64,000 bases of DNA from an uncultured Methanobrevibacter sp. (GCF_946184425.1 NZ_CAMHFP010000006.1:1-64000); one strand, 5' to 3'. Counted from the first letter of the stretch, positions 36,021 to 56,700 are shown. Made by a program: numbers and translations. The notes: a model not told the origin generated them from the letters alone.

Positions 36021-36056
36021 TGAAAAAAAAGTAAAATAAAGGTTAAACCTTTATTT
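36021..36056 (-). terminator. Hairpin plus T-tract terminator of the 1480-aa adhesin
   Basis: AAATAAAGGTT (36034-36044) pairs with AACCTTTATTT (36046-36056), an 11-bp inverted repeat with a one-base centre, followed on the minus strand by TTACTTTTTTTT. The stop codon (36051-36053) lies inside the stem. Confidence 0.72.
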
Positions 36057-39000
36057 TTTAACAGTAATTGTATTATATACTTTACATCCGCCATAAGTTG
36101 AGAGTACGGCAGATTTACCAACTTTCAAATTTTTAATGGATATTATCGCAACTCCATATTTATTGGTTTTTGCAATATAAGCCTTACCATTAACTTTAAA
36201 AATGATTCTTTGATTTTTTAATATTTTACCATACTTATTAACCAATTTAGCTGAAAATTTAATAATTTTCGCTTTTTTCACAATCATATTCTTAGTAATG
36301 ACAGTTGGTTTAAATAGTATTTTACTTGAAACCTTATCCCCATTATATTGGGCTGTTAATGTGTAAATACCCGGATTCAATTTAAAAGATTTTAAAACAT
36401 AACCGTATTTATTTGTTTTAACGGAATAGGTTTTACCATTGACTTTAATGGACACAACTTTGCCGGCACCTACATATTTTCCATCAGCCCCTATAATACG
36501 AAGTTTATATGTTATTGCATTGCCATAATAAACAACATAATTTTTATTGCCAATTATTGCAGGCATTACATTAACTTTAACAGTATTTTTAGATGAATAA
36601 AAGTCTTCATCCCCTGCAAATGATGCATAAACAGTGTATGAACCTCTTGATAAAGTTGGTAAAATAACTTGACCCAATTTATTAGTGGTTAAATTATAAT
36701 CTGCATTACCAATCATCAATCGAAGTTTTTTATTTGCTAAAACAGACCCGTTTTGATCTTTTAATATAGCTAAAACTCCTTTAGGATATACTTTTGAATT
36801 AATTAAAATGCTTGTAGAAATAAGGTTATAAGCATTTAACTTGGAAGTAGCATTTGCTGATTCAAATTCATAATTACCATTTACATCAGCACTGATAGTA
36901 GGATTTTCACCATATATCTGAGGAATTTCCGCATTTAATACGGCCAAACCATTTTCATCACTTGTTGCTTTTCCCAAATATGCAGGATATCCGTCATCAA
37001 TTACAGTAAACTCAACTACCATACCGCTTACAGGATTTCCTAAAATATCCTTAATAATTGCGCTGAATTGAGCACTTCTTGCAATAGGACCGGTTACATC
37101 ATCAATGACAATTATCAAATTACCTTTCAAAATAGATAGGCTGGATTCAAATTCTGTGACCTTATAATTATCCTTAGTGACTTTTGCAGAAATTAGATAA
37201 TCTGCAGGACTGTCTTTAAATTCATAATCGAATTTAGCAATTCCATTATTAATAACAGAAGATCCAACTTTTTCTCCCATTAAACTGAATTCCACAATTG
37301 CACCTTCCATATTCTTATCAGAAGTTGTGAAAGTGAAAGTTCCATTTTCAAGATATTTTATCACAATTGCATCGAATTTTCCAGTAACCAAGTTTGCATA
37401 ATTATCAGATACCACATTATTTGCTGTACTGTTGACAGCATCATTTCCAGTACCGTTTGCGGAATATAAATAATTATTGGAAATATTATTATCTTTTGCG
37501 TCGTTATCAATGATAATTGCGTATCCTTTTAAAGTAGTTATGTTATTGTCTACAATAGAGTTGTTAGTTGAATATGACCTGAGGTATATTCCCGCATCCC
37601 CACCTTCAATGGTGTCAAAATTCTTAAAACCAACATTATCCCCAGCGATATTTAGGAATATGCAGTTTAAGTTAATTTCGTTATTGTCAGAATTGGAAAT
37701 TACAAAACCGTAAGCCTGTTTTGTTATAACATCAAAACTATTATTTTTTATGATATTGTTATCTGAATCAAATGCCTCAAGCCCATATACAAGATCTGAA
37801 TTTAATGTGAATGAATTATATTTAATATCTGATTTTTGAGACATTTCCAGGTTAATACCATAGGATATTTCGCTTGATTTTGCATCAATAACATTTCCAG
37901 TGATTATAGTATTCTCTGAAGAAGAACCAATAATCAATCCTTCGACACAATAACTTCCTTCTACAGCAATATTATTATTGATAAATTGATTATTTTCAGC
38001 ACCCTGACCTTCAGGAGCATACATTGTTGTGTAATAACCTAATACACCCATTCCATAAATATAATTATCATTACCCCAAACATAAACTTCATTGTCTGAA
38101 AATACATTATTATGACTGTTGTAATATAAATCGATACCTACAATGGAATTTGTTGAATTGAACGTGGAATAAGTCTGATTTAATTTTGAGGTTACACGAA
38201 CTTTATTTTGTGAAACAACATTTTCTGAAGAATAAACAATCAAAATACCATAAGTTCTGTATACTTCTTTTAAAACATGACTTCCTAAGTTTGAACTGCC
38301 GTCCGGACATACACTGTTTCCATCAGCACAAACAGAACTTCCATCGGTGCAGACAGTGCTTCCGTCAGTACACACAGAATTACCATCAGTACAAACAGTA
38401 CTTCCGTCAGTACACACAGAATTACCATCAGTACAAACAGTACTTCCGTCAGTACACACAGAATTACCATCAGTACAAACAGTACTTCCGTCAGTGCAGA
38501 CAGTATTTCCTTCTAAGCAATGTTGATTTTCAAATGTATAAACTTGTCCGGTACCATTTGTGAAAATAACATTATTAATAAATCTGCAGTCGGTTACAGT
38601 GTGCGCAAGAATTGTATATGTTAAATAATTACCTTCAGAAGATAAAGTGTTATTTATTACATCAACTTCATTGGATTCAACTACATAAATCGCATAAGCA
38701 GCATTAGGGTCATAAACATCAATTGTACAATTTAAAATTGTAACACCAGTAACCTGATAAACTAAAACACCCCACGCATTAATTCTTTCAGCACGATTAT
38801 TCTTAATATTTAAGTTTTCAATCCAAACACCATCTGAAGATACTCTGAATGTGGTGTTATAAAATGTAGGATTATCACCTGTGATTTTTATAGCTTTATT
38901 TACATAGATAAATTTATTTGAAAATTCTCCTGAAAAACTTAATATATCCCCATCATCAACTGCTGAAGTTAAACCACCATTTTCATCAATATAATCCCCA

Positions 39001-40493
39001 TAATTAGATGGAGTAATCATGTAGGTTTTTCCTTTAAAGTTATAAGCATGTTTAGAAGGATCAAATTCTCCTTCAGGAGTTAGAATTCTTGAATTTTTAT
39101 TTGAAATTTTATTTTTTTCAATAGTCCATGCAGTGGATGCATTTACATCTTTTGCATTTATAGAATATTGATTATTTGTAGAAATTACGTTGTTGATTAT
39201 TGTTATATTTCCTGACATTCTTTTAGAACTAATCTTTTGAATCAAAACACCAATCCCTGATTGACTAGTTATATCATTATCTATTATGGATAAGTTAAAT
39301 AACTGAGAATTAGAAGTTGAAATAGCATGGCCAGTAGTTGTGATAACAGTATTATTTTTAATCATGACATGTGAACCCTGAGGTTTTATTCCAACACCGC
39401 TAAGTAAGACCTGCACATAGTTATCTTCAACAACACATCTGTCAGAAACAGATATTCCAGCACCAGTAGAAATGATTTTTGCTCCAGTTATAATATTATT
39501 TTTAACTAGGGAATTAAGTGATGCAGCAATAGCACCTTCACCACCAGATTCAACTCCAACATGATTAAAATCAGCACCAGTAACATTAATAATCTGATTA
39601 TTGGTAACAATTGCATTGACACCAGCAGAAATACCTAAATATGCACCTATAATCTTATTGGAATCAATAGTGTTATTCCTACCCATTACTTGAATACCAT
39701 ATGCCCATGAGGTAGGCAACACATTGTATTTTATAGTGTTATTATAAATTACATTAAATTTGGAGTCACCTCCTTTTAAAGGACCTCCGGCAAAACTGGA
39801 TAAATAAATAGCATCCGCATCATCACAGTCAATATCATTGCTAGCTATATAATTATAATGAGCACCACTAATAATTAACGGCGGGGTAGACCTAGTTCCA
39901 TGACCATAAGTCTGTCCGTAAGTTGTTAACTTATTATATGTAATGTTGTTATAATTAGCATCATTTGCAATACAAATTGGATAAGAAGATGCTCCAGTAT
40001 TTTTAATTGTACATCCTGTAATCAGACAGTTGCTTGCACCGTTTAAAAATATACCATAATTATAAATTACAGTATTTGCAATATTCAAATTGGATAAATT
40101 ACTACCAGATGCACCTGAATTTAAAGTAAATACACAGTTTTTAAGATTTGAATTACTTCCCACCACATTTATGGGCTTTTCAAAAGTAAAATTCTTTTTA
40201 TTGAATGTACCTTCAATTGTAATGGTATCCCCATCCTTTACGGAAGAAGATATTAACTTACCTGCACTATTAAAGTAAGTGTTATAATTTTCTTCATTTA
40301 CAGTATGTGAAGTTTCGGTTAAAACTTCATCATTTATCGTATCAGCAGATGCAATATTATCTGAGATACTTAACTCATCAGTAGCTTCATTGCTAATACC
40401 AACTGTTTCATTAAAATCATCGGTTGCATTAACTGCACCGATGGTGATTAATAATAGCAATAAAACTAATAAAAAATTAATTTTTTTAACCAT
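36051..40493 (-). CDS. Adhesin-like surface protein with beta-helix, Cys-hexad repeat and Ig-like domains
   Basis: An exported protein of about 1480 residues. The signal peptide (VKKINFLLVLLLLLITIGAVNA) leads into two long parallel beta-helix regions, each introduced by a capping block with FNSAGKL or YIDENGGL. The second helix is interrupted near residues 662-732 by ten tandem hexads of the form VCTDGS/N. The C-terminal third carries at least four Ig-like domains and ends in KVNGKAYIAKTNKYGVAIISIK. The ATG at 40493 is six bases after GAGG; an in-frame TTG four codons upstream includes part of that element. It is flanked by other surface-protein genes on the same strand, each with its own terminator. 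Confidence 0.9.
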   Translation of the reverse strand: MVKKINFLLVLLLLLITIGAVNATDDFNETVGISNEATDELSISDNIASADTINDEVLTETSHTVNEENYNTYFNSAGKLISSSVKDGDTITIEGTFNKKNFTFEKPINVVGSNSNLKNCVFTLNSGASGSNLSNLNIANTVIYNYGIFLNGASNCLITGCTIKNTGASSYPICIANDANYNNITYNKLTTYGQTYGHGTRSTPPLIISGAHYNYIASNDIDCDDADAIYLSSFAGGPLKGGDSKFNVIYNNTIKYNVLPTSWAYGIQVMGRNNTIDSNKIIGAYLGISAGVNAIVTNNQIINVTGADFNHVGVESGGEGAIAASLNSLVKNNIITGAKIISTGAGISVSDRCVVEDNYVQVLLSGVGIKPQGSHVMIKNNTVITTTGHAISTSNSQLFNLSIIDNDITSQSGIGVLIQKISSKRMSGNITIINNVISTNNQYSINAKDVNASTAWTIEKNKISNKNSRILTPEGEFDPSKHAYNFKGKTYMITPSNYGDYIDENGGLTSAVDDGDILSFSGEFSNKFIYVNKAIKITGDNPTFYNTTFRVSSDGVWIENLNIKNNRAERINAWGVLVYQVTGVTILNCTIDVYDPNAAYAIYVVESNEVDVINNTLSSEGNYLTYTILAHTVTDCRFINNVIFTNGTGQVYTFENQHCLEGNTVCTDGSTVCTDGNSVCTDGSTVCTDGNSVCTDGSTVCTDGNSVCTDGSTVCTDGSSVCADGNSVCPDGSSNLGSHVLKEVYRTYGILIVYSSENVVSQNKVRVTSKLNQTYSTFNSTNSIVGIDLYYNSHNNVFSDNEVYVWGNDNYIYGMGVLGYYTTMYAPEGQGAENNQFINNNIAVEGSYCVEGLIIGSSSENTIITGNVIDAKSSEISYGINLEMSQKSDIKYNSFTLNSDLVYGLEAFDSDNNIIKNNSFDVITKQAYGFVISNSDNNEINLNCIFLNIAGDNVGFKNFDTIEGGDAGIYLRSYSTNNSIVDNNITTLKGYAIIIDNDAKDNNISNNYLYSANGTGNDAVNSTANNVVSDNYANLVTGKFDAIVIKYLENGTFTFTTSDKNMEGAIVEFSLMGEKVGSSVINNGIAKFDYEFKDSPADYLISAKVTKDNYKVTEFESSLSILKGNLIIVIDDVTGPIARSAQFSAIIKDILGNPVSGMVVEFTVIDDGYPAYLGKATSDENGLAVLNAEIPQIYGENPTISADVNGNYEFESANATSKLNAYNLISTSILINSKVYPKGVLAILKDQNGSVLANKKLRLMIGNADYNLTTNKLGQVILPTLSRGSYTVYASFAGDEDFYSSKNTVKVNVMPAIIGNKNYVVYYGNAITYKLRIIGADGKYVGAGKVVSIKVNGKTYSVKTNKYGYVLKSFKLNPGIYTLTAQYNGDKVSSKILFKPTVITKNMIVKKAKIIKFSAKLVNKYGKILKNQRIIFKVNGKAYIAKTNKYGVAIISIKNLKVGKSAVLSTYGGCKVYNTITVKK
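38297..38508 (-). repeat. Tandem 18/36-bp coding repeat encoding VC(T/A/P)DG(S/N) hexads
   Basis: Ten consecutive 18-bp units encode VCTDG-type hexapeptides, alternating S-T and N-S junctions so that the near-identical DNA period is 36 bp. The outer units diverge (VCADG, VCPDG), the inner ones are almost identical, as expected from slippage expansion. Every unit contributes one cysteine; a further Cys sits in the flanking HCLEGN. Confidence 0.85.
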
Positions 40494-40616
40494 AATATAC
40501 CTCAATCACATTAAATTCAATTGTATTTATAAAAATTATTAAACAAAAATTGAAAAATAATCTAATATATTGTTATATATGAAATTAAAGTATATTTAAA
40601 AATTACTAAAAAATAA

Positions 40617-40647
40617 AAAAAAGTTGATGATTAATTAATAATCATCA
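40617..40647 (-). terminator. Hairpin plus T-tract terminator of the CobN-like gene
   Basis: TGATGATTA (40625-40633) and TAATCATCA (40639-40647) form a 9-bp stem. On the minus strand it is followed by ACTTTTTTTT. The TAA stop (40635-40637) is in the loop. Confidence 0.72.
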
Positions 40648-43600
40648 TAATCGTCTTTTTGATCTCTTGCATAACCAACTAAGAAAATTGCAATCAAAAT
40701 AATAACTGCAATAATTACAAATATCGGCATGCTAGATTCTGTTGCACTTGCAGATTTAGCAGCTGACTGTTGAGACAACTCATAAGCTTTACTGCCGGCA
40801 TCCCCAGCACCACTTGCTGAAGCGGATGAAGCATCACTAGCAAATTCGGTTGCAGATTTTGCATCACCACTTGGAGAAGCATCAGCACCAAATCCTGTAT
40901 TTCCACCATCACTACTACTTGATTTGTCTTGAGATGTGCCGTTAGCTAATTGCTGTGCATTAGAACTGTCCTGACCTTTGTTATCAGATGATCCGCTGTT
41001 GGAACCAGTATTGTCACCTGAAGTTCCTTCTTCTTCAGGCATTTGATATAATGGGTCAGTGTTTGTTGCTTGAGCCAGGATTTCTGCAAATTTAGCCTTT
41101 TGAGCAGGAGTTAGAGAACTCATTTGAATAATTTTGGCATTGAAAGCCAAGTTCTTACATGTGTGGTGACAACATGCAACACTATATTCAATCACCTGTT
41201 TGATATACTCATCAATCAGTTTTTGAACAGTGCTTGCATCACCGTCCCAAACTCCCTGATCGGCAAGGTAAACCATCCAAAGTAAGGAAGTCTGATAACC
41301 GAATGAAGCAGTTGCCCCATCAATGTATCCACTCATGCCCAACAATTCATTAGACATTTGCTGACCTAATTCCTTACCTAAATGTTCATTAGATACAGTC
41401 AAGCCCCCAAACATGTTCTGGTATCTTGCAGCATATGCATTCATACCAGTTCCGCCACCGGTAATGAGTGGCATGTAATATTTAGGGTTTAGAAGCATTG
41501 TTCTGCTTTCATACTCGATTTCTTCCTGATAGGTTCTTGCAACATATTTATTTTTGTTCCTGATATCTACAAATGCAGTGTCAGGGCGAGGCAATCCGTT
41601 TCTTTCTCTCAATATGTTTGCAGCATTATATAAACCGCCGAACCAGTCATAGTAATCGTCTGAATCGAACAATCTCCATGTACTATCGAAGTTTTGAGTA
41701 ATCAAATCGGTTTTACCAAGAAGATACTTGAAGTTTTCTTTTTGACTTTTAATATCAATATTCCCCTTGTCATCAATAGTCCATGAGAATGAAACTCTTG
41801 AAAGATATATGTCCATCAATACCTCATTAACTGTGGATTTTTCCCAATCTGCAGTGTTAGGTATGAGGGTTGACATACCTGTTCCTTCAAGCACATTACC
41901 TGGAAGACCAAATAAACGGTCAAGCATTGGATTTTCATTGTAATGTTTAATAACATAGTTATTTGTTTCATTTTCGCCTTCTGCGAAGGCCGCAAGTTTA
42001 ACGGCAGTTAGCATCCAGTTAATCCAATCCTTGTTGTTTGTAACGATACTTGCAAACACATCAATCCTAGGTCTGTTTAGAACAGTGCCGTTTGACAGTT
42101 TGACTGTTAAATTTTCCAATGGAAGTTTTTCAACACCTATAACTTTTCCATTATCAGCCCATACCGGTTTGCAACCAAGGAAGTATAAAAATTCCGCAAC
42201 ACCTATTCCTTCAGTTCTTGAGATTTCAGTACCCCATAAGATTAATGAAGTTAATTCAGGCCATTTACCATGTTTTTCATAGTAATTAGCAAGCAGTAAA
42301 TCTACAATTTTTATTGCAGACTCATAAGCTGACTCAGAAGGCATCCTTGTAGGGTCAGATGCATAACCATCATAACCTGTTGGTATTGAGTCCCCATAGG
42401 AAGGGTCTGCAAACAATCCTGCAGGAACATATCCTCCCTGCAATGCAGTGAAAATCGCATTCCATTCATTGTTGTTTTGAATGTTAACAATGACCTGTGC
42501 AGCATATGCGGTTGCATTGTACAATGATGATCCTTTAGGTATATTATATTTACCTGTTAGCTCATCTACAGATGAACCGTTGACCAATTGAGAAATATAA
42601 TTCAACAAGAATTTCTTAATAGCATTAGTCTGATTTAAATATTTAATATTACCTTGAACATCATCATTGAAATTCTTACCTTTCAATTCAGGGTATAAAT
42701 ACTCCATTAGATAATTGTAGATTTTTGTTTGAGAAGATGTAATTGTCATCACTTCTTCTGTTAACTCATTTCCAGTCAATATTTTACCTAAAGTATGTAA
42801 ACCATATGTGATGAAATCATCTTCCATATCTTCCAGATAAAGATGCAAGTCATCTAACCATTCCTGGAAAGTTTCAACTGATCCTGTGAAATTTCTAAAA
42901 CCTAAAGTTGGAGCCAATTTAAGAATCTTTTGCTTATATTCTTCTGCATTTGAGGTTACATTAAGTTTAACTTGGTCTTTATAATAATTAATATAATTAT
43001 TCAATACAGTATAGTTACCATATAAACCAGAAGAAACCATTGCAGGAGTCATGTGAGTAATCAGTAATGCTGAAATTCTATCACGTGCAACCATTGCTTC
43101 ACCAGGGTTAGAAACAATATACGGATAAATTGTTGGATTTAAAGTTAATTCAAAAGTCCAATCTCCCTCAGTAGCACCTAAATTAGTTCCAGGTAACCAT
43201 TCCAAAGTACCGTGAGTTCCCATATTAATAATTGCATTTACTTTAGCGGTTTTATCCAACCATTTGTAATATGATACATAATACTGAGTAGGCGGCAAAG
43301 TTAAATCGTGGTAATTTTCCACAGTTTTCAGTTCTTCCCATCCTCTACTTGGCTGGAAGGTAACAAATACTTTTCCAAACCACATACCAGGAACAACCAT
43401 ATACTGTTGATCAGTTCCATTATACACCATGGACGGACCTAAACCAGATCCCCAGTAATCAGTCATATTCTTGATTAATCTTTGAGGAATATCTTTAATT
43501 AATTGACGGAAATCTTTTGTTGAAATCAGCTGATGATGTTTTACCAACTCATCATAATTATCTTCAACATATTGTTTGAGTAAACCGTAAGCCCATGAAC

Positions 43601-45503
43601 CTTTGTTACCCATTTTAAATATGAGTTCTTCCAATTCACGAGCGGTCATTTTTTTCCTAATATCCCCACCGGTATCATATCCCTGTTCGTATAAGTTAAC
43701 AATTAAATCATATGTGGATTGAGTTACATTCAAATAAGAAGCACCAATTTCCGCTTTACCCGGCGGATAATTATACAATACAATTGCGATTGTTTTATCA
43801 GAATTTTTCAAATCCTTCAAATCAGCCCAACCACAACTTAATTTGACCATTTTATCTACACCAGATTGAATTACATGAGTCTTACCTTCACCATCGAGGT
43901 ATGATAAGATTACAGGACCATATACCCCTTCAAAACTTGGGAATGTAACCGCATATGTCCATTCAATTTGAGGACCTAATTCACTATTATAACTGTATTC
44001 TGAAATTTCGTCAACACCCTTCAAAATTGTCATGTCCATTTCAGATAAATCAGGCTCTGCTGAACCATTAGAATAACTTAAAGACCAACTATATAAGGAA
44101 GTAACGGATGAAATTCCCAATTTTGTAGTATTGGTAATTCTTTTTAATATAGAAGACATAGAAGGAGTAGTACTTGTTTTAAATATATTAAAAGCATGCC
44201 TACCATTCGCTTCATAACTTCTAATTAAAGCATCCACCACATCGCCCCCACAATAGTAAGTTGCAATAGCTATGAGATTTTTATCCGGATTTAATTTAGA
44301 TTTTAAATCATTTTCAAATCTGGCAAACAAATCTGTAGGATTTAAAGTGTGTTCAACCCAATATTCATATTCTTCCTTCATCCAATTTAGACTACCATCA
44401 TTTGTTTTTGTATAACCCGGATTTTGAATAATCCATTTATGAATCAATTCAGCTTCAGGTATAAGGGTATACATGCCCAAATCAGGATGGTAAAAACCAC
44501 ATTCAGGACTCATCAACGGAATTCCCTCATCTTTTAATGTAGGATTGGAATATTTACTTGGATTGATTAAATATCGAATATAATTAAAATAATTTTTCAT
44601 ATTAGATACCAAAACATCAGAATCCTTTATGTCATCAGCTTGGAAATAAGATCCTATATAGGTATTCTCAACAGTATCATAAGTATTGTTTTTTGGATTT
44701 GCTCCCACAATATGCATGCCTGTTGCATTTAAAATTTCCTGAGTATATGTACCAAATGTATATGCTACCTTATAATTTTTGTTAGCTGGAGAATTGGCCA
44801 ACATTTCTTTTAGATAAGAAGAAGTAAACCTTTTATAAGCTGAATTTTCAGCAAACATATCTATATGAATAAAATTAGCAAATTCAGCCAACCACACCCT
44901 TGACTCATCGAAATTTGTAGTACTGATATATGCAATCCTTCTTGACATGTTCATTAGCAAATCTACTTTTTCATTGTGTGAGTTATAATCAACCAATAAC
45001 AATATGTCAGGAACAAACATGAGTCCTTTAATATCAACGGATCCACTTTTTTTGGTAAAATCTATATTATTTAATTTAATAGGTTGATAAGTTGAATAAC
45101 TAATTTCTAAAGAATATTTAGAAGAACCTAAGTTTTTAATAACCGCATTACCTTTGGAATCTGTAGTATGAGTTGATACCAATTTATTTGAAGAGTCATA
45201 GACTTTAATGATTGCCCCTTTTAGATTAAATCCATCTTCATCCCATGTTTTGCCAGTTTCGTTATAAGAATCCTTTACATTAACAACATTAATTATATTA
45301 TTACCTGCTGTTAGTATTTGGTCATCTGATTGCGAAGACTGAGCATGTTGAATTTCTGGAGTTTGGACTACATCATCCAAGTTATCACTAGCACTTATAA
45401 TATCAGATACTGTTTCATTATCTCCTGCAAATACACTACTTATAGAAAACAAAAGCATAATTGTAATAATTAATGCGAATAACAGTCTATTATCTATTTT
45501 CGT
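40635..45503 (-). CDS. Exported, membrane-anchored CobN-like (cobaltochelatase/Mg-chelatase large subunit) protein, ACG start
   Basis: About 1622 residues. A signal peptide is followed by a Cna-B/Ig-like segment (residues about 75-145), then a full-length CobN/ChlH-type region with NMGTHGTLEWLPGTNLGATEGDW, PTIYPYIVSNPGEAMVARDR and FLYFLGCKPVW. After that come a Ser/Gly/Asn-rich stalk and a C-terminal transmembrane helix (FVIIAVIILIAIFLVGYA) with a DDYDDY tail. CobN normally inserts Co2+ into hydrogenobyrinic acid diamide in the cytoplasm with CobS/CobT, which are not seen here. The annotated-style ATG at 45458 lacks a ribosome binding site and basic residues. GGAGG (45511-45515) is exactly seven bases before an ACG at 45503, which yields KIDNRLLFALIITIMLLFS and a proper signal peptide; a TGA lies just upstream. 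Confidence 0.85.
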   Translation of the reverse strand, partial: TKIDNRLLFALIITIMLLFSISSVFAGDNETVSDIISASDNLDDVVQTPEIQHAQSSQSDDQILTAGNNIINVVNVKDSYNETGKTWDEDGFNLKGAIIKVYDSSNKLVSTHTTDSKGNAVIKNLGSSKYSLEISYSTYQPIKLNNIDFTKKSGSVDIKGLMFVPDILLLVDYNSHNEKVDLLMNMSRRIAYISTTNFDESRVWLAEFANFIHIDMFAENSAYKRFTSSYLKEMLANSPANKNYKVAYTFGTYTQEILNATGMHIVGANPKNNTYDTVENTYIGSYFQADDIKDSDVLVSNMKNYFNYIRYLINPSKYSNPTLKDEGIPLMSPECGFYHPDLGMYTLIPEAELIHKWIIQNPGYTKTNDGSLNWMKEEYEYWVEHTLNPTDLFARFENDLKSKLNPDKNLIAIATYYCGGDVVDALIRSYEANGRHAFNIFKTSTTPSMSSILKRITNTTKLGISSVTSLYSWSLSYSNGSAEPDLSEMDMTILKGVDEISEYSYNSELGPQIEWTYAVTFPSFEGVYGPVILSYLDGEGKTHVIQSGVDKMVKLSCGWADLKDLKNSDKTIAIVLYNYPPGKAEIGASYLNVTQSTYDLIVNLYEQGYDTGGDIRKKMTARELEELIFKMGNKGSWAYGLLKQYVEDNYDELVKHHQLISTKDFRQLIKDIPQRLIKNMTDYWGSGLGPSMVYNGTDQQYMVVPGMWFGKVFVTFQPSRGWEELKTVENYHDLTLPPTQYYVSYYKWLDKTAKVNAIINMGTHGTLEWLPGTNLGATEGDWTFELTLNPTIYPYIVSNPGEAMVARDRISALLITHMTPAMVSSGLYGNYTVLNNYINYYKDQVKLNVTSNAEEYKQKILKLAPTLGFRNFTGSVETFQEWLDDLHLYLEDMEDDFITYGLHTLGKILTGNELTEEVMTITSSQTKIYNYLMEYLYPELKGKNFNDDVQGNIKYLNQTNAIKKFLLNYISQLVNGSSVDELTGKYNIPKGSSLYNATAYAAQVIVNIQNNNEWNAIFTALQGGYVPAGLFADPSYGDSIPTGYDGYASDPTRMPSESAYESAIKIVDLLLANYYEKHGKWPELTSLILWGTEISRTEGIGVAEFLYFLGCKPVWADNGKVIGVEKLPLENLTVKLSNGTVLNRPRIDVFASIVTNNKDWINWMLTAVKLAAFAEGENETNNYVIKHYNENPMLDRLFGLPGNVLEGTGMSTLIPNTADWEKSTVNEVLMDIYLSRVSFSWTIDDKGNIDIKSQKENFKYLLGKTDLITQNFDSTWRLFDSDDYYDWFGGLYNAANILRERNGLPRPDTAFVDIRNKNKYVARTYQEEIEYESRTMLLNPKYYMPLITGGGTGMNAYAARYQNMFGGLTVSNEHLGKELGQQMSNELLGMSGYIDGATASFGYQTSLLWMVYLADQGVWDGDASTVQKLIDEYIKQVIEYSVACCHHTCKNLAFNAKIIQMSSLTPAQKAKFAEILAQATNTDPLYQMPEEEGTSGDNTGSNSGSSDNKGQDSSNAQQLANGTSQDKSSSSDGGNTGFGADASPSGDAKSATEFASDASSASASGAGDAGSKAYELSQQSAAKSASATESSMPIFVIIAVIILIAIFLVGYARDQKDDYDDY

Positions 45504-45701
45504 ATTTTCACCTCCTTTTCATTTATTATAACTAACATAGCAATATCGATTAAGATTTACTATAAGTTTAAATTTGACTTGAAAACATATAAACATTACT
45601 AAACTAAATCAAAATTATAATATGCTAAAATACAATTATTTGGGATAAATTTAAATACTTAATCAAATAAATAAAGTGTGCTATTATATAGAGGTGATAA
45701 T
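45504..45701. promoter_or_regulatory. Divergent intergenic region between the CobN-like and DUF1002 genes
   Basis: On the minus side it holds the AAAGGAGGTGA ribosome binding site of the CobN-like gene. On the plus side a TATA-like AAATTTAAATAC near 45647-45658 lies upstream of an AGAGGTGATAAT ribosome binding site for the DUF1002 gene. No other feature is apparent. Confidence 0.5.
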
Positions 45702-46544
45702 ATGCGAAAGATTACTATTGGTATAGTTATTTTATCTATAATCATAATAGGCATGGTTATACCAGCAGGGTTTTCCGGTCAAGCAAATTCAGTTGTTATA
45801 ACTTATGGTGAAACTACTCATGCGAATACAAACTACAAATCTGACGTTGATTCCTTTTTCAAAAGTCAAAGTAATTTGGATTTAGGTAGTGCAGTCGAAA
45901 AAATTATTACAGCTAATGACGTTAACAAAATTGCAAGCTCAATAACTGGAAGAACATACGATTCAAGTCAAGTCTTTTCCTCAGCACTTGTTAACTTAAA
46001 CGATAACGACAATCTAGAAGTTAGTGTGGATAAAGCAAAAATCACCACTATAACTGGAGATATGTACTTATCTGCATTAAAATCAGCAGGAATTACAAAT
46101 GGACATATTTACGTAACAAGTCCAGTAAAAGCTACTGGTGAATCTGCTCTTGCAGGAATTATGAACTGTTACGAAGAAGCAACCAACGTTGAAATTCCAG
46201 AAACTGTAAAAGAAGCAGCAAACAAAGAAATTTACACTCAGGCAGAGGTTGTTCAAGAGTCAAATGTCAGTTCAGATAAGGTATCCAAATTAGTAGACGA
46301 TGTAAAAGAAACTGTAAAACAGGAAAATATTACAGATCATCAAACTATTGTAAATATCATTTACAACTATACTGTAAACAATAACATCAATATTACAAAC
46401 AGTAGTATTGAAAACCTTGCAAACTCCATTGAACAAACACAAAACGTTCAGGGAGATGTTAGCAACTATGAAAATCAAGTAACTGAGGTTCTAAATGGTA
46501 CCAAAGATACTGCAAATGATTTTTTAGGTGGAATATTTGGATAA
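45702..46544 (+). CDS. Exported DUF1002 (YpuA-like) protein
   Basis: A 280-residue protein with an N-terminal signal sequence or anchor (MRKITIGIVILSIIIIGMVIP). The body, VVITYGETTHANTNYK, VSVDKAKITTITGDMYLSALKSAGITNGHIYVTSPVKATGESALAGIMNCYE, fits the DUF1002 family of unknown function found in Firmicutes and methanogens. The C-terminal half is helical with DVKETVKQENIT and NNNINIT repeats. The start is the ATG at 45702, four bases after GGTGA; the GTG eight codons earlier precedes this ribosome binding site. It is the only plus-strand exported gene within the surface island and is divergent from the CobN-like gene. Confidence 0.88.
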   Translation: MRKITIGIVILSIIIIGMVIPAGFSGQANSVVITYGETTHANTNYKSDVDSFFKSQSNLDLGSAVEKIITANDVNKIASSITGRTYDSSQVFSSALVNLNDNDNLEVSVDKAKITTITGDMYLSALKSAGITNGHIYVTSPVKATGESALAGIMNCYEEATNVEIPETVKEAANKEIYTQAEVVQESNVSSDKVSKLVDDVKETVKQENITDHQTIVNIIYNYTVNNNINITNSSIENLANSIEQTQNVQGDVSNYENQVTEVLNGTKDTANDFLGGIFG

Positions 46545-47735: not shown

Positions 47736-47768
47736 ATAAAAAGTTAGTGAGATTGATTAATCTCACTA
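47729..47768 (-). terminator. Hairpin plus T-tract terminator of the giant adhesin
   Basis: TAGTGAGATT (47745-47754) pairs with AATCTCACTA (47759-47768), a 10-bp stem with a 4-base loop, followed on the minus strand by ACTTTTTATTTTTTT. The TAG stop (47766-47768) lies inside the stem. Confidence 0.75.
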
Positions 47769-50700
47769 GTTAGTCACTATCATTACTCTTCTAGACGCTG
47801 CATTATAACAACTATTACCCTTATAGCTTATAAGTGCAATAAATTTAGCTTTTTTGGTTAATTTAGTAATCTTAAAGATTGCTTTACCATTAGCATCGGT
47901 TTTTGCACTATAAACAACACCATTAATCTTTAAATTAACACGAACATTCTTAATAGGATGTTTATTATAATCTTTAAATACAGCCACATATTGTTTAACT
48001 TTCAATGCTGCTTTGTAAACCCTATTCTGTGCATATATATAAGAGTTTACTTTAACAACTTTAACTGTAGCGGATGTTGAAGATTTAGTGTATTTGTTAG
48101 TGCCAAGGAATGTTACTTTAGCAGTGTATACTTTTGGAGTCAAACCAACTGTAGTTAATTTAGCTTGACCGTTCTCATCAGCAGTTACAACAGTGGTCTT
48201 ACCATTGATTTCAATTGAAACTTTCTGACCCGCCAACAAATTACCGTATTCATCTTTCATGATAACAAGGATGTTCCTATGTTCATCATTATATAAAACT
48301 CTGAAATTCGGAGAGAAAAGAACTGTTTTCAATTTAACGGAGACATTGAATGCAGCTTGAGTAGAATTACGGTTATACTTGTCATCACCAAGATAATTAG
48401 CAGTGATGTTATACATACCTTCAGGCAATACTCCCATGAATTTTGCAGTACCATTTTCCAATTTAAGGTAAATGCTAGTTTCATTGATGATTAATTCAAC
48501 GAAACCAGTAGCATCTGCTTCAACATTGAAGGTAATATTTACATTATTGCCATCAGTAATTGGAAGTACTGAAATGGAAGTATCTTTTTTAGGTGGAATT
48601 GCTATTTCAAATGTGTTTGATGTAGAATTAGTATTGAACCTATCATCACCCATGTAAGTTGCAATTACTGTGTATTTTCCATTAGGTAAAATATCTTCAC
48701 GAACTGCTTTACCATTTATTACATCAGCATACAAAGTAGAATCTCCAACACCAGACACAACAAATTTAACAAGACCAGTAGCATCAGAATTGATGTTTAC
48801 AGTTAATGTCACATTATTGCCTGCAGTGCCAACATCCAAACTAATTTCAGTGTTTTCTTTAACCGGATCAACAACTGTGAAAACGACTTTAGTACTGTTC
48901 TGGTTGAAATTATCATCACCAAGATAAGTTACATTACCATAATAACTACCAGCCCTCAAATTAGTAACTAAAACTCCAACACCATCAGTTAATTCAATAT
49001 TAACAACAGTACCACCAACAGCTAATTTAACAAATCCAGTAGCATTTTCATCAACATTCACAGTCAAGGTTACCCTGTTACCATTCACATCAGCACGAGC
49101 AGCAATAGGAGTATCCTTCTTAATATGACCCACAACAGTGAAATCTTCAGAAGTAATATTAGTATTAAACCAACTATCTCCCATATAAGTTGCAACTACA
49201 GTGTAATCACCACTTAAAAGAACATATTCAAGAACCGCTTTACCTTTAATTACATCTGCATAGAGAGTATAATCTTCTGGACCAGTTATCTGGAATTTAA
49301 CAAGACCAGATGCAATTTCATCAACAGTAACTGTCATTTTCACATTGTTTTCATCAGTAACGATATCCAAAGAGATTGGAGTATCATCCTTAGCAGGTTC
49401 TACAAGTGTAAATTCACATTTAGTGGAGTTCTTATTGAAGTTTGCATCACCAAGGTAAGTAACATCCAAAGTGTAGCTTCCATAAGGCAAAGTAATTGTC
49501 AAAGTACCTTCACCATTTTCCAATGCAATATTAGATACGCTAACACCAGATTTCACTTCAACAAATCCAGTAGCATTTTCATCAACCTTAACAGTCAATA
49601 AAACTCTGTTTGCATTAGTTTCAACAGTTACCTCAATAGGAGTATCCTTCATCACATGACCAAGGATTTCAACATCCTTAGAAGTAGTGTTAGTGTTGAA
49701 TACTGAATCACCCATATATGTAGCAACAACAGTGTAATTTCCAGGTTCAATGCTGTTAGTAAATGTTTCAACATGACCATCAATAACATCCATATACATA
49801 GTATACTCTTCACCGGTTTCCTTACCTACCATATAGAATTTAACCAAACCAGTTGCAGATTTATCCACATCAACAATAACCAAAGCAGTATCCTCACCAA
49901 CAACAATATTAAGATCAATAGTGGTATTTTTCTTGGAAGCTTCTGTTACGGTAAATGTCAATTTAGTACTGTTCATATTGTAGTTATCATCACCAAGATA
50001 AGTTACATCAACAAGGTAACTGTTTGGAACCAAGGAAGTTGTTAATGTTGCAACACCATCTACCACTTCCATATTAGCAACAGAACCACTAAAGGTCAGT
50101 TTTACAAATCCAGTAGCATTTTCATCAACATTCACAGTTATTGTAACCCTATTACCATTCACATCAGCACGAGCAGCAATAGGAGTATCCTTCTTAATAT
50201 GGCCCACAACAGTGAAATCAGCATAAGTAATATTAGTGTTGAACCTATTATCACCCATATATGTTGCAACTACAGTGTAATCGCCAGTTTCAAGAATATC
50301 TTCAAGAACCGCTTTACCATCAATTACATCGACATAGAGAGTGTATTCCTCTTCACCTGTTACCTGGAATTTGACAAGACCAGATGCAGCTTCATTAACA
50401 ATAGCAGTTATTGCCACATTGTTTTCTTCAGTAACGATATCTAAAGAGATTGGAGTGTTTTCCTTAGCAGGTTCTACAAGTGTGAATTCACATTTAGTGG
50501 AGTTCTTATTGTAGTTCGCATCACCAAGATAAGTAACATCCAAAGTGTAACTTCCATAAGGCAAAGTAATCGCTAATGTACCTTCACCATTTTCCAATGC
50601 AATATTAGATACACTGACACCAGATTTGACTTCAACAAATCCAGTAGCATTTTCATCAACCTTAACAGTTAATGTAACTCTGTTTGCATTAGTTTCAACA

Positions 50701-53700
50701 GTTACATCAATTGGAGTATCCTTCATCACATGACCAAGGATTTCAACATCCTTGGATGTGGTGTTGGTGTTGAATACTGAATCACCCATATATGTAGCAA
50801 CAACAGTGTAATTTCCAGGTTCAATGCTGTTAGTAAATGTTTCAACATGACCATCAATAACATCCATATACATAGTATACTCTTCACCGGTTTCCTTACC
50901 TACCATATAGAATTTAACCAAACCAGTTGCAGATTTATTCAAATCAACTTTAACCAATGCAGCATCTTCATAAACATCAATGTTAAGATCAATAGGAGTG
51001 TTTTTCTTGGAAACCTCAACTATAGTGAATGTCACCTTGGTCTTGTTCATATTATAGTTATCATCACCAAGATAATTAACATCAACAAAGTAACTGCCCG
51101 GAACCAATGTAGTTGTTAATGTTGCAACACCATCAACTACTTCAATATTAGTAACAGTACTGCCAACAATCAGTTTTACAAATCCAGTAGCATTTTCATC
51201 AACATTCACAGTTAATTTAACCCTGTTACCATTCACATCAGCACTAGCAGAAATAGGAGTATCCTTCTTAATATGACCCGCAATAGTGAACTCAGCATAA
51301 GTAATATTAGTATTAAACCTGCTATCTCCCATATATGTTGCAATTACCATGTAATCGCCAGTTTCAAGAATATCTTCAAGAACTGCATTACCGTTAATTA
51401 CATCAGCATAGAGAGTGTATTCTTCCGGACCGGATACTTGGAATTTGACAAGTCCTGTTGCAGTATCATTAACAGTAACAGTCATTGCCACATCGTTTTC
51501 ACCAGTCACGACATCTAAAGAGATTGGAGTGTTTTCTTTAACAGGTTCTACAAGTGTGAATTCACATTTAGTGGAGTTCTTATTGAAGTTTGCATCACCA
51601 AGGTAAGTTACATCCAAAGTGTAGCTTCCGTAAGGCAGTGTAATTGCTAATGTACCTTCACCATTTTCCAATGCGATATTAGATACACTATCACCAGATT
51701 TGACTTCAACAAATCCAGTAGCATTTTCATCAACCTTAACAGTCAATAAAACTCTGTTTGCATTAGTTTCAACAGTTACCTCAATAGGAGTATCCTTCAT
51801 CACATGACCAAGGATTTCAACATCCTTAGAAGTAGTGTTAGTGTTGAATACTGAATCACCCATATATGTAGCAACAACAGTGTAATTTCCAGGTTCAATG
51901 CTGTTAGTAAATGTTTCAACATGACCCTCGATAACATCCATATACATAGTATATTCTTCACCAGTTTCTTTACCTACCATATAGAATTTTACCAAACCAG
52001 TTGCAGATTTATTCAAATCAACTATAATTAAAGCAGTGTCTTCACCAGCAATAATGTTAAGATCAATAGTGGTATTTTCCTTGGAAATTTCTGTTACAGT
52101 AAATGCCACATTAGTACTGTTCATATTGAAGTTATCATCACCTAGATAAGTAACATCAACAAAGTAACTATTTGGAAGTAAATTAGTAGTTAATTTTGCA
52201 ACACCATCAACTACTTCAATATTTGCAACAGTACCACCAACAGCTAACCTTACAAATCCAGTAGCATTTTCATCAACATTCACAGTCACTGTAACCCTGT
52301 ATCCAACCACATCAGCACTAGCAGAAATAGGAGTATCCTTCTTAATGTGACCTCTGATAGTGAAATCTTCATAAGTGATGTTAGTATTGAATCTGTTATC
52401 ACCCATATAGGTTGCGATTACTGTATAATCACCAGTTTCAAGAACATCCTCAAGAACCGCTTTACCATCAATTACATCGACATAGAGAGTGTATTCCTCT
52501 TCACCGGTTACTTGGAACTTGACAAGACCGGTTGCTGCATCATTAACAGTGACAGTCATTGTCACATTGTTTTCTCCAGTTGCGACATCCAATTCAATTG
52601 GAGTGTCCTGTTTATTTACATTGAATGTTGTGGTATTATATGCGCTGTAGTTACCGTCAACAACAGTTACAGAAACAAAAATATCCTTACCAACATTTAA
52701 ATCAGGAATATATTTAACTCCTTCTCCATCATTAACAGATACAGTATAGTTTTCACCTCTAATACTTACAATGTATTCACCGTCAACATCAGACTGAACA
52801 ACAACAGTAGCATTATCACCATAAGTAATATCCTCAACAGAAACAACAACGGAAATCTGTTTACTTGTTACTTCAAATATTGCTTCTTCAAATGCGGAAT
52901 AATTTCCGTCAATTGCAGTTGCATTAACAGTATAACTTCCAACAGTCAAGCCAGGAACTGAAACATTTCCGGTACCGTTTACAACAGTAACTTTATGAGT
53001 TTCATTACCTATGTAAACGAGATATTCGCCGTCAACTTCTGCACCAACAGTAACTACTGCATTTTCGCCGTAGGTTATATTGGATACAGTAATGTTTAAT
53101 TCTACAGTTTTTGGAATGACTAATACTACGCCAGAATAGACTATAGATTTATTGGTGTAGTAGGAATCACCTTCATAAGTACCTGTGACCAGATATTTTC
53201 CAACATTGTCTACAACATACAAATTAGGAACAACAAGTTCTTCGAGACAGGATTGTGTGATAGTGTAAACAGGATTCATATTGGAATCATATACAGTGTA
53301 GGTAATGTTTCCATATGCATTTTCTGGAACTTTCACATGAACAGTTGCATTTTCACCATAATAAATAGTATCGTTAGATAGGTTGAAAATTCCGATATTT
53401 TCATTAACTGTTAAATTAGCATAGCCGTATGCTTCATTATAGTCGTCAGTTTCAATTTTATAAACTTTGATTTCATATTTACCAGGTTTGAAGTTTTTAC
53501 TTGGAACTGTAAATGTTCCGCTGCCGTCAATATACAATGAAACTGCATCATCGTAGCTGTCGTTTATAAATACGGTATAATAATCAGCAACGTCGACTTT
53601 TACATTAATTTCAATATCTTCACCATAGTTAGCTTCAGCATCGCTTACAGTTATGTTTGGAGTGGTTTTGTAAACTTCCACATAAACTGGTATACCGACT

Positions 53701-56700
53701 GGATAGTAGTTTTTATTTCCACCATATGATGCTGCAACTAAATAGTTACCATGGGTCAATGTGAGATTTTCAAGCTGAGTCTTGTTATACCATTTTCCAT
53801 CCAATTGATAGAGAATCTTATCGGTAGCATTATTGACGAGTTCAGCATTAACTTCTAATTTTTCACCCTGAGTAATATTTGATATTGTAACTTTTAATCC
53901 AGGATCTATACGATTGACAGTGAATGTTTTGGTTATTTGATTAAATACGAATGTGTTTGAATCATCGTCTTGTGTATTTAATACCACATCATAGTCTCCA
54001 CCTGTTAGATTGCTTAAAGTGTAGGTGAAGTTATTGTTAGTTACTTTGACCGGATAGACTTTGTTGTTAATGTTTAAATTGACAGTGAAGCCGAAGTTTG
54101 TACCTATGTCAATAGTACCATTAATTATTTCAGTTTGTCCATAGTCAATATCACTAACAGCATAATCAACGTTTGCAGTATCAAAGGTTGTATTGGTAAT
54201 GTTCACATTAGGGTTCTCACTATAGATGTTTCTGCAATCGCCTCCCTTATTGTCTGCAAACATACATTCGTTGACACTAGCATTCACATTTGATCCAATG
54301 AATAATGCACTTTCGCCTGAACGTGGGTTGCCTGAAAGGGTATTGGATAAAAATGTGGATTCTGAAACGGACAGATTTTTGTCTTCACTTAAAACAATAT
54401 AATAACCAGTATTGTTTGTGAATGTACATCCTGAAATACTATTTTGAACATTGTTCCATGATTCAATTATACGGCTAAATGCATTTCCTGTAAATATTGA
54501 ATTTTCAATATTCAATTTTGAATTATCCCTTGCAAAAATACCTTCTCCTTTAGTATTATCGTAAAATTCAGCATTGATGAGAACATCATTACATCTCTCA
54601 ACAGAAATGACTTCACCTGATCCTAATGTGTTTTCAACAAATTCAGTTGATATGACTTTTGCTGAATTCGCATTAGTTATATTAATGAGGCGGCCCCAAC
54701 TGTCGATTGTATTGTTTTCAAATGTTGATTCATTAATGATAATGTCAGATTTACTATTGACGAGGTAAGTGTGGTATATTTTATTGTCATAAAATTCAGA
54801 GTTAACAATATTTAAATTTCCTTCACTGTATATTAATCCTTTAAATGTATTTGCAAAAACATCGTTAACTAAATTATTATTAACAAAGGTACATCCTTCA
54901 AAAGTCAAATTACCTCTATTCCAAAAGACTCCATTGTTTAATCTAGCATGAAATCCAGTGAATGCCACATCAGATATGGTAACATTAGAGCCTTCATTAA
55001 CTAATAAAAACATAAATAGAGTTGAATTCGCATCAAAAATAACCTCTCCAAGTGCATTTATGCTTAATTTTTTGCCTGAAATACTCACTCCAATATTGCT
55101 TTCACCAGTGTAAGTTCCTTCCATAACATAAATAATGTCTTCAGTTGCAGAATTTTCGACAGCTTCAGCCAATGTATCGAATTTTCCACCAGTACTGTTG
55201 ACAATGAAATTGCCTAAATATTCACTTACAGTGAATGTGGTTCCGTTTGCTGCATCGTTATAGTTTTCATCACCTTCACGGACAACCATTATGCTGTAGT
55301 TTCCTTCTCCAACACTGTCCAATGTTATTTCAGCTGTAGTGTCAGCAATAGTGAAAGTTGAAAGCCTATTATTGAACAGAAGCTGGAATGTTCCGTTTTT
55401 ACTTGCGTTGATTTTTAAAACAGGGGTACCAATATCTGAATTTTTAAGGATAAGGTCTTCTACAGTCAGATTTATGTAGACATTCGCCTTATTTACGATA
55501 AGCCTGTCTCTTATTGCTTCACCATAATAAACGTTGCCGTTTTTATCATAAATGACTTCATTTAATATAACGTCATAAGCGCCTTTTGGTAAAATACCGG
55601 TATTATATTCAAATATACCATCTGTAATTGCGACTTCAGCATCTTTATAGTTAACAAATCCAGGTAATATTAATTGAAGGTCCATGTTGAATTGAGGATC
55701 AAGTGTGCCTGTAATTGTTGTAGGAATGCCGTATTCTCCATCCGGTACGTACAATATCACATCATAGAAATCGAATGTGTTATCTCTAAAGTCTTGAACA
55801 TCACCTGCATTGTAAATGTTTGCATACTCGTAAGCGAAGTTAATTCCAAAGAATGATTCTGTAAGTTTCAGGGTTTTGTTGTTGTAGATCGCCCCACCAT
55901 TGCCTGTTGCGGTATTTGCAACTAATGTGGAATTATTCACAATCAGTATATTATTATTGTAAATGGCACCTCCGTCCTTTTCACTGAATCCTCCGCTAAA
56001 TGATGAATTAGCTATGTTTGCTTCACCGTCATTGAAAATTGCACCACCATATCCGTTTGCAGTGTTATCTTCAAAAGTAGAGTTTAAGACTTCTAATGTA
56101 CCTTCATTATAAACAGCTCCGCCATTTATACCTTCATTTTCATTGAAAACTGTGTCTTTAATGGTTAATGAATTTTTGTTATATATTGCACCACCATTTC
56201 CGTTATTGATGTTTTCTGTGAAATTGGAAGCAACAATTTCTGCATTTCCATTGTTGTAGACAACAGAATTTGTATTTATGACATTGCTTGAGAATTCAGC
56301 TCCGTCGATGAATAATTTTCCATTATTTAAAACAATAGCATTATTAATGGAATTAAGTGAAAATACACCGTCTGTTATATTTAAGGAACCGGAATTGTAT
56401 ATGATTTCCTCGGTTTCAAAACCGGTGAAAGAACAGTTTTTAAGTGTTAATCTGCCGTAATTTTCAATTGATGCATGATCTTTTATGCCTCCATCAACAA
56501 ACTCAATGTTTTCAATTACAACATTGCATCCTTCAGCCACTGTAAAGAACCAGTTTGTGCTGTTTCCATCGAAAACAACCATGCGGTCTCTGAAATTGGT
56601 AAGTGTGAAAGATTTGGTAATGTCAATTTCCATATTCTCATCAATATGATAATTTGCATTTGCATAAATAATACCATTATCTGTAACATTGCCAATAGCG

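Follow-up and report, generated by a model that had tools for sequence, protein, structure and literature searches.

A conserved, predicted surface-anchored CobN-like protein of Methanobrevibacter and its possible part in releasing metal from tetrapyrroles

The window analysed here, a stretch of 64,000 nucleotides from an uncultured Methanobrevibacter sp. (GCF_946184425.1 NZ_CAMHFP010000006.1:1-64000) on a 74 kb contig of a host genome of 2.2 Mb in 83 contigs, carries amid adhesin-like genes a reading frame (40635-45503, minus strand) which is uninterrupted for 1622 amino acids (aa) and encodes a CobN-like protein, referred to below as type A. The initial annotation had placed it among adhesin genes, as a CobN/ChlH-type region lying between a signal peptide and a C-terminal membrane anchor with an added Cna-B/Ig-like domain and a Ser/Gly-rich stalk, and the following features were recognised.

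40635..45503 (-): predicted surface CobN-like protein (type A), 1622 aa from ACG at 45503 (PF02514, E 1.7e-176; orthologues in 57 of 67 genomes; tree)
45508..45517 (-): Shine-Dalgarno sequence AAGGAGGTGA, followed by 4 nt and then ACG (45503-45501), the likely start codon (sequence; comparison of orthologues)
45426..45503 (-): predicted signal peptide, aa 1-26 (sequence and hydropathy)
45048..45254 (-): prealbumin-like or CarboxypepD_reg-like beta domain, aa 84-152, sub-threshold (Pfam search)
41406..44540 (-): CobN/ChlH class I chelatase region, aa 322-1366 (PF02514; sequence matches to Protein Data Bank (PDB) entries)
43212..43214 (-): His764 in MGTHG, equivalent of the catalytic His538 of HmuS (alignments; H538A abolishes HmuS activity, PMC12583661)
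41646..41657 (-): Asp1283 to Asp1286 (DYYD), CobN-like, replacing His1209/Glu1212 of HmuS (alignments)
41157..41174 (-): CCHHTC motif, aa 1444-1449, of C-x4-C form (alignment with HmuS and CobN sequences)
40740..41060 (-): Ser/Gly/Asn/Asp-rich stalk, about aa 1482-1588 (sequence)
40668..40727 (-): predicted C-terminal transmembrane (TM) helix (sequence and hydropathy)

This architecture was borne out in most of its parts, including the adhesin surroundings. The N-terminus has Lys/Arg and then a hydrophobic core of about 17 residues, ending SISSVFA/GDN, and the C-terminal helix is a run of about 20 hydrophobic residues (best 17-residue hydropathy 3.6) with a short acidic tail, RDQKDDYDDY, after it. 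Between these ends the PF02514 profile (CobN-Mg_chel) is matched over nearly its full length (positions 27-1029 of 1090), and among proteins of solved structure its sequence comes closest to CobN (7c6o, 3.2e-68), ChlH (4zhj, 2.6e-65) and HmuS (9d26, 1.6e-58). The stalk was found as described, with Asn and Asp as well as Ser and Gly, but the Cna-B/Ig-like domain is graded as likely but weak because the scores of the beta domain lie barely under the curated cut-offs (CarboxypepD_reg 29.8 against 32.3 bits; SpaA 23.0 against 23.1). Judged on these features the type A protein is very probably anchored in the membrane and faces outwards. That it is a cytoplasmic CobN whose hydrophobic ends have been misread is extremely unlikely; CobN and ChlH are normally cytoplasmic and the start codon is non-canonical, but both hydrophobic ends, the beta domain and the stalk are conserved in the clade, and cytoplasmic paralogues have none of them.

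Type A is a conserved archaeal family and not a single odd fusion, as the protein had first appeared to be. Orthologues are present in 57 of 67 Methanobrevibacter genomes (50-87% identity, mostly full length and of the same architecture), which shows that the architecture is not a chance product, and the only other CobN in the host genome, which represents the second type known in the genus and is here called type B, lies on contig C50. At the level of the family, 106 of 139 genomes have PF02514. In a tree of 55 rows, made by a quick method with SH-aLRT (Shimodaira-Hasegawa-like approximate likelihood ratio test) support and no bootstrap, the window protein falls within a clade of 23 rows (SH-aLRT 100) which largely tracks taxonomy and spans the Methanobacteriales, with members in two further families of the order as well as in Methanobrevibacter. 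HmuS and type B fall outside this clade, and the deeper branching order is not relied on as the HmuS branches are long. One decaying CobN copy, with nine in-frame stops and intact paralogues alongside, was seen elsewhere (G151:C1:985055-987406).

The start at 45503, which the initial annotation had already given, is an ACG codon lying 4 nt after a perfect Shine-Dalgarno sequence (AAGGAGGTGA-AAAT-ACG, with an in-frame TGA immediately 5' of it), and it gains comparative support from the orthologues. The first canonical ATG, at 45458, lies within the signal peptide, and a start there would truncate that peptide so far that it could not function. Among 31 orthologues (L037-L065 and the window) the codon at this position is ACG in 19, ATC in 6, ATA in 2, ATT in 2, TTG in 1 and ACA in 1, and in none is it ATG; ACG, ATC, ATA or ATT thus stands at a fixed distance from the Shine-Dalgarno sequence in 29 of the 31 type A genes, and a near-cognate codon, if TTG is included, in 30. 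An in-frame GTG overlaps the Shine-Dalgarno sequence in seven of the 19 ACG orthologues. The divergent neighbouring DUF1002 gene has a similar Shine-Dalgarno sequence but starts with ATG in the aligned loci. The simplest reading of these sequences is that type A genes would initiate at near-cognate codons, low expression being perhaps the purpose; no relevant report of ACG start codons in archaea was found in the open-access literature.

CobN is a soluble cytoplasmic protein driven by CobS/CobT and ATP, and ChlH is likewise cytoplasmic, with ChlI and ChlD as its partners. The absence of CobS/CobT proposed in the initial annotation was upheld for CobS, for which a genome search with TIGR01650 gave no match in any of the 67 Methanobrevibacter genomes; for CobT, the VWA-bearing model TIGR02442 (ChlI/ChlD-like) had no match in the host genome, although no search with a CobT-specific model was made. 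Across the 67 congeneric genomes TIGR02442 yielded one 93-residue fragment only, compared to 13 of 14 control genomes in which the model was positive. By contrast, an archaeal CobN without TM helices, and so of cytoplasmic type (L218), has as its neighbour a protein combining ChlI AAA, AAA-lid and VWA domains. Class II chelatases of CbiX type are present in the host genome, so that biosynthesis does not need the type A protein. It is thus very unlikely that type A acts as an outward metal insertase, remetallating scavenged metal-free tetrapyrroles or taking part in late cofactor assembly: its homology to the metal-inserting CobN and ChlH would suit such a role, but insertion as known in this class needs an ATP-driven motor, CbiX-type enzymes are available for biosynthesis, and the gene contexts described below indicate metal uptake.

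An extracytoplasmic CobN without a motor, taken as an anomaly when the gene was first annotated, has precedents in HmuS and BtuS of Bacteroidota, which are membrane-anchored CobN relatives outside the cytoplasm and without an AAA+ partner (PMC12583661, PMC6460266), and in the membrane-anchored "BchH" of M. ruminantium, mru2047, mentioned in 2010 with N- and C-terminal TM helices (PMC2812497); mru2047 is probably an orthologue of the window protein, since its gene number adjoins those of the adhesins mru2048/2049. HmuS strips iron from haem without ATP, the reduction being NADH-dependent in vitro, and it is defined by His538 (essential and superfamily-wide, H538A being inactive), His1209/Glu1212, the outer ligands Met79 and His254 (in HGR) and a Met-rich insertion (PMC12583661). 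A profile alignment of the window protein and HmuS (probability 100, 25% identity) extended across 1075 columns. In it the superfamily His, carried in a G-[TRK]-H-[GA] loop, is kept as His764, as it is throughout the type A clade, and Cys1444 and Cys1449 are invariant in common with 34 HmuS sequences (CSGFVC in HmuS, CCHHTC in the window protein). Within the 55-row set C-x4-C is present in nearly all extracytoplasmic members and in 0 of 4 members without TM helices, and thus it is an apparent signature of the extracytoplasmic class. It is fairly improbable that type A has kept the chelatase fold without its activity and now serves the cell surface in a structural or adhesive role. The adhesin surroundings, beta domain and stalk would be in keeping with this, and the His has been lost in two distant surface paralogues (L219, L222), but essentially the whole type A clade keeps His764, DSDDYxDW and CCHHTC, which would be unexpected for a mere scaffold.

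Three further features lie in the genes on either side.

36051..40505 (-): secreted right-handed beta-helix protein, 1484 aa, a conserved partner directly downstream on the same strand (PF13229)
38318..38510 (-): C-x-[DE]-G repeat array in the beta-helix partner, 11 Cys with a 7-residue period (Tandem Repeats Finder)
45678..46544 (+): DUF1002 secreted protein, divergent, with its promoter region in common with the CobN gene (PF06207, 2.8e-49)

The beta-helix gene lies directly 3' of the type A gene, with a gap of 104-152 bp, in all sampled orthologues of the genus above 55% identity. Its repeat loop has a constant position across related genomes, with periods of 5, 6, 7 or 14 and units such as CTDGS, CPEGS, CLDGN, CIDGN and CVDGS; because period and flanking residues vary while the Cys, the acidic residue and the Gly stay, selection appears to have acted on the repeat as protein, and DNA slippage alone would not account for it. 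At least two C-x-[DE]-G motifs occur in 17 of 19 orthologous partners (three or more in 13), compared to 0 of 32 other long proteins from the same loci, and in the host genome the motif pair is confined to the beta-helix partner. From this pattern we infer that the array may bind metal. A 125-aa open reading frame at 38186-38563 on the plus strand is not a gene, since it reads the Cys repeat in antisense. The divergent DUF1002 neighbour is kept in 18 of about 20 loci of the genus, and the DUF1002 proteins in the literature we found were reported from Gram-positive bacteria. An operator common to the CobN and DUF1002 genes was considered for the region between them; the blocks conserved there contain TATA-like stretches, and no palindrome stood out clearly. 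Further along, 47766-62510 of the window encodes a 4914-aa surface protein of beta-helix and Ig repeats with long near-identical repeat blocks.

Elsewhere in the host genome the type B gene on C50 is followed by genes for DUF2162, ExbB/MotA and DUF2149, and this archaeal order (CobN-DUF2162-ExbB-DUF2149) parallels HmuS-HmuT-HmuU-HmuV of Bacteroides. HmuU is 33% identical to the archaeal ExbB (1e-33) and HmuV 33% identical to DUF2149 (5e-10). ExbD-type proteins carry an Asp at the start of their membrane helix; DUF2149 retains an Asp at that point (NLVDAMLV), the ExbB protein retains LGLMGTLIPMGP, and APCPCCFG is invariant in DUF2162. Genes of the type A clade (membership support 100) have the module directly 3' in two genomes of other genera, G103 (L116) and G102 (L223), while in G044 the first gene of the module is 3' of type A at a contig end (L069) and in G120 the module lies three genes on (L122). 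Contig C17 of the host genome carries the module again, without a CobN (L068, G000:C17, 6658-10365), headed by a 598-aa secreted protein of no Pfam family which is homologous to an FmdE-domain protein preceding a CobN-module operon at locus L208, and so a CobN may once have belonged to the C17 module and been lost from it or moved elsewhere. The FmdE-domain surface protein beside the CobN of that locus (L208:11980-14898) also gave a sub-threshold match to a Shr-like haemoglobin-interacting domain (E 0.006). In five sampled genomes with type A and no type B (G043, G059, G061, G064 and G074) the strong DUF2162 copy belongs to a lone module; there are exceptions, in that several genomes with both types have the type B module only. 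Among 96 genomes taken at a completeness floor of 90%, DUF2149 is present in 83 of 84 with CobN compared to 6 of 12 without (Fisher test, P = 7e-6, shared descent being ignored).

The clearest pointer to iron is a pairing with FeoB. In 8 of 8 genomes of another genus (g19, Methanothermobacter-like by inference; loci L213 and L225 and six further genomes, G144-G151) a second FeoB gene (FeoB_N, 7.6e-62) lies directly 3' of a surface CobN gene on the same strand, though this CobN belongs to a clade other than type A and the eight genomes may represent one evolutionary event. In B. fragilis FeoAB is required for use of the iron released from haem, to which the CobN-like BtuS1 and BtuS2 contribute (PMC6460266), and two CobNs of BtuS type in Methanosarcina barkeri shift with the iron or sulfur source, as does FeoB (PMC10846266).

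The reading which we favour, to which we give about an even chance of being right, is that type A is a surface de-chelatase of metallotetrapyrroles, or metal scavenger, working in the manner of HmuS and BtuS, with iron the most likely metal. The protein would bind a metallotetrapyrrole outside the membrane, most likely haem, with corrinoid or F430-type rings also possible; His764 in the central cleft would act as axial ligand or acid and the metal would be released. The adjacent beta-helix protein would buffer the freed metal, mainly Fe(II), with its Cys-x-Asp-Gly array, FeoB or DUF2162 would import it, and force of the kind provided by AAA+ motors in the cytoplasm would possibly come from the ExbB-DUF2149 motor encoded elsewhere in the host genome. 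The gene contexts with FeoB, with ExbB-DUF2149-DUF2162 and with the Cys repeat speak for such de-chelation and metal release rather than for remetallation. Of the roles first suggested for the protein, capture of the ring or its metal is supported and remetallation is disfavoured.

Several observations weigh against this reading. Haem binding in the manner of HmuS is not supported by the site residues: His1209 and Glu1212 of HmuS (motif LSLDHxxEFMGG) are replaced by Asp1283 and Asp1286 in FDSDDYYDWFGG, the HGR/His254 outer haem ligand has no counterpart in the profile alignment, in which the Met79 head domain did not align, and the Met-rich insertion (about 120 residues, HmuS domain IV) is a gap in the window protein. 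Loss of the metal and tetrapyrrole ligands, which had been named as grounds for dropping a tetrapyrrole role, is thus seen for the HmuS-specific haem ligands, while the superfamily His is kept; as the HmuS-specific residues are missing, type A is not classed as HmuS, though it would be HmuS-like in its working. In another genus, two surface paralogues (L210) do carry a His/Glu pair like that of HmuS. The structure prediction that had been proposed was run with AlphaFold2 on aa 295-1480 with 34 HmuS sequences, and was too poor for inspection of the site or for a search by fold (mean pLDDT, the predicted local distance difference test, 50; pTM, the predicted template modelling score, 0.46). The window locus itself has no ExbB module and no FeoB, so that their link to the window orthologue is in trans or by clade, and an equation of HmuT with DUF2162 was rejected when profile comparison showed no similarity. 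Methanobrevibacter does not synthesise haem (PMC8351635, PMC3004389), and its use of haem is limited.

The replacement of His1209 bears on another explanation, that type A is a receptor for corrinoids (cobamides) or another tetrapyrrole, binding the intact cofactor at the surface and passing it on with its metal retained. An Asp also stands at this second axial position in CobN of M. tuberculosis, a corrin enzyme (7c6o, DSDDYFQY), whereas the porphyrin enzymes ChlH and HmuS have His there, and cobamides surround gut methanogens. As proof of a corrin substrate, however, the Asp is weakened by the FeoB-linked surface CobN, which has the same Asp as the window protein, and so Asp does not exclude iron. 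Moreover no BtuCDF-type importer was recognised adjoining type A in the loci read, the catalytic His is kept, and no riboswitch for B12, Co or Ni was found in the window or eight related loci, which speaks against the receptor as far as B12 is concerned. We therefore consider a receptor of this kind unlikely, though it deserves to be weighed.

A wider proposal, possible but doubtful at present, is that the methanogen surface chelatases and HmuS alike are de-chelatases driven by the proton-motive force, with ExbB-DUF2149 (HmuU-HmuV in Bacteroides) replacing the AAA+ ring, and that for type A the Cys-x-Asp-Gly beta-helix neighbour serves as a surface metal store. Since these archaea have no outer membrane and no TonB receptor which such a motor could power, the usual role of HmuUV in driving HmuR cannot apply there, and the occurrence of HmuU/HmuV homologues with surface CobN in these cells raises the testable possibility that in Bacteroides, too, HmuU and HmuV drive HmuS rather than, or besides, HmuR. 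The authors of the 2025 HmuS paper called the use which Archaea make of their many HmuS/CobN/ChlH homologues unclear, and the gene contexts described here yield testable predictions on this. If de-chelation at the surface is correct, gut and other methanogens would strip metal from haem or corrinoid there, tying dietary or host haem to methane producers.

Compared with HmuS/BtuS (PDB 9d26; PMC12583661, PMC6460266, PMC13227078), the window protein has the same class I chelatase fold, predicted to be anchored outside the cytoplasmic membrane with no AAA+ partner, the catalytic His and C-x4-C near the C-terminus; for its family, ExbB and DUF2149 genes stand in a similar order at the type B locus and behind type-A-clade genes of other genera. 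It differs in having Asp for His1209, in lacking HGR/His254 and the Met-rich insertion (at 25% identity), in the beta domain added at its N-terminus and the long stalk towards its C-terminus, and in its setting, an archaeal envelope with no outer-membrane receptor and a locus without the ExbB module. With CobN (PDB 7c6o, 9uk9) it has in common the fold, the G-x-H-G His and DSDDY at the second axial position (7c6o), but CobN is soluble, cytoplasmic and dependent on CobS/CobT and ATP, whereas the window protein has a predicted signal peptide and TM helix in a genus with no CobS. ChlH/BchH (PDB 4zhj) is alike in its fold and GTHG His, but it works in the cytoplasm together with ChlI/ChlD, its second axial residue is His and it has no C-x4-C. 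The mru2047 protein and the BtuS-type CobNs of Methanosarcina barkeri (PMC10846266) are likewise archaeal CobN-like proteins, and earlier notes on the Methanobrevibacter protein give no account of its family, partners or mechanism. Extracytoplasmic CobN relatives and the membrane-anchored "BchH" of M. ruminantium (PMC2812497) were thus already known, while the partner modules found in archaea, the partner with the Cys array, the C-x4-C signature and the start-codon pattern appear to be new.

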